Source: Synechocystis sp. PCC 6714
GTDB lineage: Bacteria; Cyanobacteriota; Cyanobacteriia; Cyanobacteriales; Microcystaceae
NCBI RefSeq assembly: GCF_000478825.2
Contig: NZ_CP007542.1
Coordinates: 1,736,001-1,800,000 of the forward strand
Direction of reading: 5' to 3'
DNA: 64,000 nt
Below, piece by piece: positions 55,059 through 57,341 of the stretch (its first letter is position 1; each line of letters opens with the position of its first letter). Both the position numbers and the translations under genes were made by a program. The notes under the pieces were generated by a model. That model saw only the letters and a list, made by a program, of their open reading frames with translations, ran no database searches and was not told where the DNA came from.

Positions 55059-55121
55059 AATAAGGAAGCAGCCGGAGGGTCGAAACATGGCAAGACTCCT
55101 TGCGGACTTCCTTATTTTTTT
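55059..55121 (+). terminator. Strong intrinsic terminator or terminator-ended small RNA
   Basis: AATAAGGAAG (55059-55068) pairs perfectly with CTTCCTTATT (55107-55116), followed by TTTTT. Inside, GGAG (55074-55077) pairs with CTCC (55096-55099). It is about 105 bases after txlA and probably ends that transcript. Confidence 0.75.
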
Positions 55122-55456: not shown

Positions 55457-56284
55457 ATGACTACGACTGAATTAACGGCGGCCACCCTAGCCCAACTTCA
55501 GCAAGAAATTGACAGGTTACAACAGGAGAACGATGACCTCCACATCGCCCTGACTACCATTGCTGAACATGGAGATATGATCGAGTCGTTACTGAATGAG
55601 ACCAATGTCAAGCTCAGAAGTGAAATCTTGGAACGACAACGGGCAGAAGCCAAATTGCAGAATATTCTCAGCTTGATTTCGCGGGAGAAGCAAGACCTAG
55701 AAATTATCGTGGAAACCATTATGCAACATGGGGACGTGGTGGACGCCCAATGGCGGCAAAAGCTTGGGGAAACCGCGGAACTACTCAACCTCGATAGCCT
55801 TACTCAGGTCTCCAACCGCCGGCACTTTGATCTTCATCTAGGCCAACAATGGGAACGGGTCCTGAATACCCAAGAGGCGATCGCCCTGGTTTTATGCGAC
55901 ATCGATCACTTCAAAGAATTTAACGACTTTTATGGTCACCTCAGTGGTGATGACTGTTTACGGCGCATTGCCAAAACCCTTAGTGCCACCTTGCGGAACC
56001 CATTTGACCTCTTTGCCCGTTATGGGGGCGAGGAATTTGGCGTAATTCTGCCCCAGGTTTCCGCTGAAGCTGCCCAACAAATCGCCAAACGTATGCAAGC
56101 ATCCTTAGCCATGCTAGAAATTCCCCATCACCATTCCCCCACCAACGCATTCGTCACCATGTCCTTCGGCATCGGTCGCCTGTATCCCCAACCAGGGCAA
56201 TCCCCCCTAGACCTAATTGCCCAAGCCGACGAAAATCTTTACAAGGCAAAACGTCAGGGCCGCAATCGCATTGTTGGCCACTAA
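55457..56284 (+). CDS. Diguanylate cyclase with N-terminal coiled-coil stalk (SiaD-like)
   Basis: 275 residues. Residues 8 to about 110 are helical, rich in heptads (LQQEIDRLQQENDDLHIALT, NETNVKLRSEILERQRAEAK). The GGDEF domain (about 110-275) is complete: DSLTQVSNRRHFD, CDIDHFKEFNDFYGHLSGDD, and active-site RYGGEEF. The product is c-di-GMP. The inhibitory I-site RxxD, five residues upstream of GGEEF, reads NPFD, so feedback inhibition is probably weak or absent. No sensor or membrane part. A stalk of this kind in SiaD of Pseudomonas is bound by SiaC; the next two genes are SiaB-like and SiaC/STAS-like. Confidence 0.88.
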   Translation: MTTTELTAATLAQLQQEIDRLQQENDDLHIALTTIAEHGDMIESLLNETNVKLRSEILERQRAEAKLQNILSLISREKQDLEIIVETIMQHGDVVDAQWRQKLGETAELLNLDSLTQVSNRRHFDLHLGQQWERVLNTQEAIALVLCDIDHFKEFNDFYGHLSGDDCLRRIAKTLSATLRNPFDLFARYGGEEFGVILPQVSAEAAQQIAKRMQASLAMLEIPHHHSPTNAFVTMSFGIGRLYPQPGQSPLDLIAQADENLYKAKRQGRNRIVGH

Positions 56285-56320
56285 ATTCTCCATCACTCAG
56301 TCAGCCCTATAAACATAACC

Positions 56321-56920
56321 ATGACTACTGACCCAACTAGTGTTAGACATTGGGGAATGTTCCTTGAGCCTATTCCCCCCAGCGATGAATTCCTCACCCT
56401 CAACTTTTCCCTAGACCGAGCAAATCGTTTGCAACGTTGGCGCAACTATGGTCTGTCGGCGGATTTTTTGGGGGACTACTTTGCGACCTTTTTCCCTGGC
56501 AATGGGACAGATGACGGCCTTAGTCAGAGGGACACCATCAAGGGGTCGGTCAGTTATATCGCTAACGAACTGCTGGAAAACGCGGTTAAATATAGCACCA
56601 TCGACCATGACTACCCCATCACCATTACTCTGCATCTCTACGACAATAAATTGATTTTTGAGACCAGCAACATTGCTCCCCAGCAAACCATCGTCGAGTA
56701 CGAAAACTTCATCAAAGCGTTGGAGGAGAGGGACCCCATGGAATTGTATCTAGAACGGTTGGAAAAATCCGCTCTGGAAGATTGCGAGGCGTCACAAATT
56801 GGTTTATTGACCATGATCAATGATTACCAAGCCCAGTTTGGTTGGCGCTTTGTCTCGATTCCCGATGGCCAAAATTTAATTCAAGTAACGGTAATGGCCC
56901 ACTTAAGTGTAGAAATTTGA
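56321..56920 (+). CDS. SiaB-like (DUF6272) GHKL kinase-fold protein
   Basis: 199 residues. The region VSYIANELLENAVKYS (near residue 75-90) is the N-box of GHKL ATPases, like SiaB and anti-sigma kinases; a second segment ASQIGLLTMINDYQAQFGW near the C-terminus resembles the glycine-leucine lid part of SiaB (GLGLL). In Pseudomonas SiaB phosphorylates SiaC and so blocks activation of the diguanylate cyclase. It follows the GGDEF gene by 36 bases. A classical G1/G2 box is not obvious. Confidence 0.7.
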   Translation: MTTDPTSVRHWGMFLEPIPPSDEFLTLNFSLDRANRLQRWRNYGLSADFLGDYFATFFPGNGTDDGLSQRDTIKGSVSYIANELLENAVKYSTIDHDYPITITLHLYDNKLIFETSNIAPQQTIVEYENFIKALEERDPMELYLERLEKSALEDCEASQIGLLTMINDYQAQFGWRFVSIPDGQNLIQVTVMAHLSVEI

Positions 56921-56999
56921 ACGGCGGTAGCAAGAAAAAACATTAATTCATTTTCGGCTACTTCCCTAGATTTGTTGAGATTCACTGAACTTATAAAAC

Positions 57000-57341
57000 A
57001 TGGAAATAACCACCGAAGACTATCGAATTTATTTTGAAGAAGAAAATAACACCCTTTACTTTCGGGGCTTTTTAAGGCTGGAAGGCATGAAAGAATATCA
57101 GCCCTTGATGAACACCATGTTGGCAATTTTAGACAACTGTAATGAACTGACCATTAATTTGGAGGGACTAGAATTCCTCAACAGTTCTGGCATTAGTATG
57201 CTTTCAATGTTTGTCATGAAAGTACGAGGTAAAGAAGGCACCACTCTAGCTTTTAAAGGTTCCAAGAACATTCTCTGGCAGACTAAGTCTCTGAGAAATC
57301 TGCAACGATTAATGCCCAGCTTAACCTTGGAGTTCGTTTAG
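57000..57341 (+). CDS. STAS-like / SiaC-like small partner protein
   Basis: 113 residues. Beta-alpha pattern IYFEEENNTLYFRGFLRLEG, LTINLEGLEFLNSSGISMLS and a C-terminal LTLEF. The LNSSG segment (near residue 58-62) lies where STAS antagonists carry their phosphorylated Ser and where SiaC carries its Thr. It is 79 bases after the SiaB-like gene on the same strand. Substrate of the upstream kinase by inference. Confidence 0.75.
   Translation: MEITTEDYRIYFEEENNTLYFRGFLRLEGMKEYQPLMNTMLAILDNCNELTINLEGLEFLNSSGISMLSMFVMKVRGKEGTTLAFKGSKNILWQTKSLRNLQRLMPSLTLEFV

Follow-up and report, generated by a model that had tools for sequence, protein, structure and literature searches.

Here we report that a three-gene locus of the cyanobacterium Synechocystis sp. 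PCC 6714 probably encodes three quarters of a phospho-partner switch resembling SiaABCD of Pseudomonas aeruginosa and its relatives, in which a diguanylate cyclase with an N-terminal coiled-coil stalk would be controlled by the neighboring Slr1659-type protein. The locus lies within a 64,000-nucleotide stretch of contig NZ_CP007542.1 (RefSeq assembly GCF_000478825.2, positions 1,736,001 to 1,800,000 of the forward strand), here called the window, to which the locus coordinates refer. While slr1658 and slr1659 are already known as named families, what is new here is the proposal of a cyanobacterial second-messenger partner switch with a phosphatase clade of its own, extended to class III cyclases.

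The three-gene locus

The three open reading frames lie on the same (+) strand, separated by intergenic gaps of 36 and 79 bp. The first (55457-56284) encodes a soluble diguanylate cyclase of 275 amino acids, the predicted SiaD-like output. Its residues 6-111 (55472-55789, delimited by alignment) form the coiled-coil stalk, on which the STAS protein is predicted to dock, and are followed by a GGDEF catalytic domain (55787-56269; PF00990, E=5.5e-56) whose signature is intact (DIDHFKEFNDFYGHLSGD and GGEEF). The second gene (56321-56920) encodes a GHKL-fold protein of 199 amino acids, the predicted SiaB-like kinase, with the N-box NELLENAVKYS at residues 82-92 (56564-56596) and the G2-box region SQIGLLTMINDY at 56792-56827. 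The third (57000-57341) encodes a STAS/SiaC-like protein of 113 amino acids, in which the phospho-site region FLNSSG occupies residues 59-64 (57174-57191). An earlier note, made from the letters of the DNA, had described three adjacent same-strand genes for a coiled-coil GGDEF enzyme, a GHKL-fold protein with this N-box and a STAS-like protein with LNSSG at the phospho-site position, and all of these features were recovered. Upstream of the cyclase gene, at 55059-55118, lies a hairpin-like inverted repeat with a T run behind it, which probably terminates transcription of the gene before.

By NCBIfam, the second protein is a member of the slr1658 family (slr1658_cyano, NF052618: 234.1 bits against a cut-off of 200; see also NF047703) and the third a member of the slr1659 family (slr1659_superfam, NF047705: 143.3 bits against 100). 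The window therefore matches the slr1657-slr1658-slr1659 region of a Synechocystis-type genome, and by gene order the cyclase gene should correspond to slr1657 of PCC 6803. The family models carry no mechanism; their association with a stalk cyclase and with one particular phosphatase is added here. Slr1657, Slr1658, Slr1659 and Slr1660 are given as proteins of unknown function in a network paper (PMC4614683), and slr1658 has been labeled a putative two-component system gene (PMC7555055). According to the passage of PMC7555055 that cites Zer et al. 2018, slr1658 disruption led to poorer recovery from iron limitation, with pgr5 the top overexpressed gene, constitutively. Our literature search found no mechanism for this phenotype, no paper tying the slr1657-slr1659 region to Sia proteins or cyclic di-GMP, no tie of slr1657 or sll1365 to the proposed pathway, and no use of the terms DUF6272, “SiaB family” or “SiaC family regulatory”.

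Relation to the Sia proteins

The Sia link is visible only by family-wide profile scans, profile-profile alignment and fold comparison; PDB sequence searches with the second and third proteins, singly or as profiles, gave no SiaB or SiaC match and only weak STAS matches. A bona fide SiaABCD operon, from the gammaproteobacterial genome L204, served as a yardstick: each of its four proteins scores above the NCBI equivalog cut-off, and its SiaB matches DUF6272 at E=8e-41. In the family-wide scans, DUF6272 is matched by 47 of 48 Slr1658 homologs (best 2.7e-13) and the NCBI SiaB-family model by 38 of the 48 (best 1.1e-13); among Slr1659 homologs, 48/49 match STAS and 25/49 match SiaC (E<=0.01, best 1.3e-5). 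When compared by hhalign with alignments built from ten bona fide SiaABCD operons, Slr1658 paired with SiaB at 95.8% probability and Slr1659 with SiaC at 88.3%. For the kinase and a STAS protein from this genome's IcfG cluster, the corresponding values were 15.6% and 9.2%; each of these was a single sequence, so that the contrast is indicative.

The residues expected of a kinase and its substrate are conserved. The catalytic Glu (E83) and N-box Asn (N87) are invariant across the 48 Slr1658 homologs and pair with the corresponding E...N of SiaB. Slr1658 and SiaB also share a conserved N-I where GHKL proteins usually carry the DxGxG box, and GLGLLTM of Slr1658 aligns with GLGFLTM of SiaB (GLGxLTM). 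In the third protein, N61, S62 and S63 are invariant across 49 homologs in an xLN[TS]S loop, FLNSSG standing at the place of YLNTSS in SiaC.

Comparison of folds points in the same direction. The AlphaFold model of Slr1658 (predicted local distance difference test score, pLDDT, 89.9) superimposes on SiaB (6kko_A) with Z=13.1 over 155 aligned residues at a root mean square deviation of 3.1, and no other listed match exceeds SiaB in Foldseek TMq (0.54); the structural similarity to SiaB and GHKL kinases on which the earlier note had staked its reading of the 199-residue protein is thus present. For the Slr1659 model (pLDDT 93.7), SiaC chains (6kko_D, 7e6g_D, 6kkp, 6k4f) are the top matches in VIA-align, with Z 12.1-12.7 over 109-112 residues, and rank above SpoIIAA/RsbV; next comes an RsfB chain (8ih8_A, Z 11.7), a margin of about 1.

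Neighborhoods across cyanobacteria

In a sample of 292 cyanobacterial genomes, slr1658 homologs above the cut-off occur in 45, and slr1659 follows slr1658 in nearly all of the 58 neighborhoods that we read; a three-gene set of this kind is, for these reasons, not a product of chance. Across these neighborhoods the pair adjoins a SpoIIE-type phosphatase, proteins that join this stalk to a GGDEF or class III cyclase domain, or both, and the leading Pfam families among 101 same-strand neighbors are SpoIIE (27), GGDEF (13) and Guanylate_cyc (12). Full cassettes of phosphatase, kinase, STAS protein and stalk cyclase are found at L078, L083, L058, L033, L036, L039 and L073, ordered phosphatase-1658-1659-stalk GGDEF in L078 and phosphatase-1658-1659-stalk class III cyclase in L036. 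In L058, L066 and L069, the pair stands between a stalk-GGDEF gene and a stalk-class III cyclase gene. The arrangement of PCC 6714 thus also occurs in other genomes, and in other cyanobacteria the pair adjoins adenylate/guanylate-type cyclases.

The input parts of the linked phosphatases are HAMP, dCache, PAS, receiver or ammonium-transporter-like. Directly upstream of slr1658 in L035 and L038, an ammonium-transporter-like domain, PAS and a SpoIIE phosphatase are fused in one protein (domains called), and the same fusion is taken to be present in L041 and L044 from similar N-termini and a PP2C match; these proteins suggest that the switch takes ammonium as one of its signals. Proteins of about 1770-1830 amino acids with a C-terminal SpoIIE phosphatase lie near slr1658 in L046, L054, L057, L060 and L087, and the N-termini of those in L046 and L057 look Ser/Thr-kinase-like. 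In L040, L049 and L050, a gene for 343-349 amino acids separates slr1658 from a receiver-SpoIIE phosphatase gene; in L050 it encodes a receiver-CheB methylesterase.

The unlinked phosphatase

The genome of PCC 6714 contains five SpoIIE matches, four of them full-length, and one of the latter, a transmembrane-HAMP-SpoIIE phosphatase of 647 amino acids encoded away from the locus (C1:3129420-3131363, minus strand), is set apart from the rest. A profile of slr1658-linked phosphatases gives it 278 bits, against 49-64 for the other three (49 for IcfG). In a tree it groups with all 35 linked phosphatases, the other three falling outside, and its full-length identity with the linked phosphatases in L033 and L036 is 42%. 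Of the 45 genomes that have slr1658, 43 also have a phosphatase of this clade, and the 247 genomes lacking slr1658 have none (Fisher p=1.5e-49, a value that overstates the strength of the association, as the genomes are related and not independent, in a pattern that nevertheless spans many families). In one of the two slr1658 genomes without a clade member, G195, the contig ends beside slr1658. On these comparisons, the C1:3129420-3131363 protein is very probably the “missing SiaA”. The earlier note had placed the phosphatase elsewhere in the genome, which agrees with our result, and had offered an IcfG-type PP2C as an example, which most probably does not hold.

In the congener G080, it is the phosphatase gene that stands immediately before the stalk-GGDEF gene, in the same orientation and at a distance of 36 bp, and slr1658-slr1659 lie elsewhere; two Synechocystis-type genomes have therefore split the same four genes in two ways. 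In G203, the one genome with the stalk but no slr1658 above the cut-off, a stalk class III cyclase (L265, 2124-4105) has just upstream a phosphatase-like N-terminal remnant, LMNRLSYPQKFTLIS. This looks like, and fits, an internal deletion of the phosphatase-1658-1659 stretch.

The cyclase stalk

The genome as a whole has 23 GGDEF matches, and of these the stalk profile recovers solely the cyclase of the locus, with no match elsewhere in the genome. In other cyanobacteria, cyclases encoded close to slr1658-slr1659 begin with the same stalk. It occurs in 36 of the 45 genomes with slr1658 and in 1 of the 247 without. Compared alone with PDB, the stalk gave chance coiled-coil matches only.

In P. 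aeruginosa, SiaC binds two stalk motifs of SiaD, with T68 touching S82 and Q86 (PMC8457831). The window stalk likewise has two HGDx(I/V) motifs, HGDMIESLL (55568-55594) and HGDVVDAQW (55727-55753), which resemble the SiaD motif ISDRYQ in a pattern picked after inspection and are spaced 53 residues apart versus 32 in SiaD. Forms of the docking motif in SiaD-like proteins include ISDRYQTMM, VGDLMQEEL and IGDLLQALL; those of cyanobacterial stalks include HSDTVEAEL, HGDLIEAQL and HADLVEAQL. The pattern [GSA]Dx(hydrophobic)[EQ]xx[LM], chosen after both sets had been inspected, is present in 28 of 32 cyanobacterial stalks, 6 of 7 SiaD-like linkers, none of the 21 linkers of this genome's other GGDEF proteins and fewer than 1% of shuffles. 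The likeness is suggestive, given this choice of pattern and the difference in spacing.

Some stalk cyclases beside slr1659 carry GGEEL or GGEEI instead of GGEEF (L039_04, L042_07, L042_08, L043_06, L045_01), two such genes standing in tandem in both L042 and L043; such enzymes may be degenerate or may differ in activity. In L085, L086, L049 and L050, slr1659 is followed by a stalk protein that lacks a cyclase domain. That of L085 has PAS only, and those of L049 and L050, at 161-163 amino acids, are too short for a cyclase domain; such proteins are possible competing docking partners.

Limits of the likeness and alternative explanations

Several observations weigh against a Sia-like switch. 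Taken alone, the 199-residue protein stays below the membership cut-offs of PF19788 DUF6272 (18.4 bits against 26.6, E=0.0017) and the SiaB family NF038262 (15.7 against 85, E=0.008), and the 113-residue protein below that of SiaC, PF09345 (14.8 against 24.5, E=0.02), a model with no match in a search of the genome; its STAS match alone is weak as well (E=0.003). The cyclase reaches 144 bits against the SiaD equivalog cut-off of 290 (NF038266), over the GGDEF part only. In the tree, SiaA forms its own clade (100/100) apart from the cyanobacterial phosphatases, which are therefore not SiaA orthologs; SiaA (NF038263) is nonetheless the best NCBIfam match of the C1:3129420 protein (6.8e-18, 64.5 bits against a cut-off of 700). 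The Slr1658 model ties with the anti-sigma factor UsfX (8ih8_C, Z=13.7 over 129 residues), Slr1659 homologs match STAS more widely than SiaC, and 9 of the 45 slr1658 genomes have no recognized stalk. The post hoc choice of the motif pattern and the relatedness of the sampled genomes belong here too.

Since both regulators fall below the curated SiaB and SiaC cut-offs, the system is a distant cousin of SiaBCD, the biofilm switch of Pseudomonas, and not a member. What holds is that Slr1658, Slr1659 and the stalk cyclase are SiaB/SiaC/SiaD-like in architecture. The systems share a HAMP-SpoIIE phosphatase, a DUF6272 GHKL kinase, an xLN[ST]S STAS phosphoprotein and a stalk-GGDEF cyclase whose stalk has two docking-like motifs, and SiaB and SiaC are among the closest folds for both regulators. 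They differ in that the cyanobacterial phosphatase is here unlinked and of another PP2C clade, that NPFD stands in the window cyclase where an RxxD inhibitory site would be, and that class III nucleotide cyclases, too, bear the stalk in other cyanobacteria. The SiaB/SiaC/SiaD reading of the earlier note accordingly stands for architecture, folds, a stalk with docking-like motifs and PP2C linkage; it does not stand for identity, the two proteins belonging to the slr1658 and slr1659 families.

The tie with UsfX/SpoIIAB, the wider matching to STAS and the transcriptional effect of slr1658 disruption, with pgr5 foremost in the account of Zer et al. 2018 given in PMC7555055, would all be expected if the locus were a classical sigma-factor switch, in which Slr1658 serves as anti-sigma factor, Slr1659 counteracts it and the neighboring cyclase is a separate gene. 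SpoIIAB/SpoIIAA and RsbW/RsbV indeed combine a GHKL kinase, a STAS phosphoprotein and a SpoIIE-type PP2C of the same folds. However, no sigma-factor family was common to at least two of the 101 same-strand neighbors, a count in which single-match families are not all listed and distant sigma genes are not excluded; the neighbors and co-occurring partners of slr1658-slr1659 are cyclases instead, and the stalk keeps company with slr1658. The closest profiles are SiaB and SiaC and not the IcfG-cluster pair, the G1 box of SpoIIAB/RsbW is replaced in Slr1658 and its G2 box is of SiaB type, and a change in cyclic di-GMP can itself alter transcription. We regard a sigma-factor switch as unlikely. It is similarly improbable that the switch is real but acts mainly on something other than the adjacent cyclase, docking on the stalk serving as a scaffold or to sequester Slr1659, and Slr1659 acting on another target. 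The genomes without a recognized stalk mean that further outputs must exist, some stalk proteins lack a cyclase domain, and the pgr5 transcript phenotype is not an obvious cyclic di-GMP output. Yet the stalk occurs once in PCC 6714, in the adjacent cyclase, and the stalk cyclase of G080 is paired with the phosphatase instead, so the link is not one of mere neighborhood.

Two further explanations were weighed. IcfG (slr1860 type) could act as the phosphatase of an otherwise unchanged switch, being a SpoIIE-type PP2C of the same genome with kinase-like and STAS neighbors of its own; the IcfG cluster (slr1856-slr1861 type) is likewise a PP2C/kinase/STAS partner-switch set, built from other kinase, STAS and phosphatase subfamilies. 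We rejected IcfG and consider its involvement very improbable: its score against the linked-phosphatase profile is far below that of the C1:3129420 protein, it falls outside the linked clade, and that clade co-occurs with slr1658. Rejected too, and hardly credible, is a two-component system in which Slr1658 signals like a histidine kinase to a response regulator. The GHKL fold, a weak HATPase_c match of the 199-residue protein in Pfam and the gene label in PMC7555055 would agree with it, but Pfam scans found no HisKA or dimerization domain in this protein or its homologs, its partner is nearly always a STAS protein, and by profile and G-box variant it is closer to SiaB.

Proposed mechanism and implications

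From the genes, their folds and conserved catalytic and phospho-site residues, the stalk motif and the physical and phylogenetic linkage of the four parts, we infer kinase, phosphatase and docking activities and control of cyclic di-GMP. In the SiaABCD-like switch that we propose, the unphosphorylated Slr1659-type protein would use its FLNSSG loop and helices to dock on the adjacent cyclase, at the coiled-coil stalk, and would set the activity of this enzyme. By analogy with SiaC and SiaD, from which the sign is borrowed, docking would turn the cyclase on by stabilizing the active dimer. The Slr1658-type GHKL protein would phosphorylate Slr1659 at Ser62 or Ser63 and so block docking, and the membrane-anchored HAMP-SpoIIE PP2C encoded at C1:3129420-3131363 would remove the phosphate on a membrane signal. 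If this SiaB-like role is true, it would give the Slr1658 phenotype a mechanism, namely phosphorylation of Slr1659 controlling a diguanylate cyclase.

The Moorella stressosome offers a precedent: judging by the title of its PDB entry (3ztb), it is a STAS-based system adapted to second-messenger signaling. It is a multi-subunit assembly, however, and differs from a pair of SiaB/SiaC type that docks on the stalk of a cyclase. We put forward tentatively, at somewhat short of even confidence, that one generic Slr1658/Slr1659 switch with a dedicated SpoIIE phosphatase drives any stalk-bearing enzyme, whether for cyclic di-GMP, cyclic AMP/cyclic GMP or both; the pairs of L058, L066 and L069 are flanked by stalk cyclases of both types.

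As the comparative data name a specific phosphatase, the whole pathway becomes testable. If our proposal is true, the partner switching of second messengers in Pseudomonas-type bacteria would have a counterpart in many cyanobacteria and would reach class III nucleotide cyclases as well, with switch inputs that vary among dCache domains, receiver domains and ammonium-transporter-like modules.

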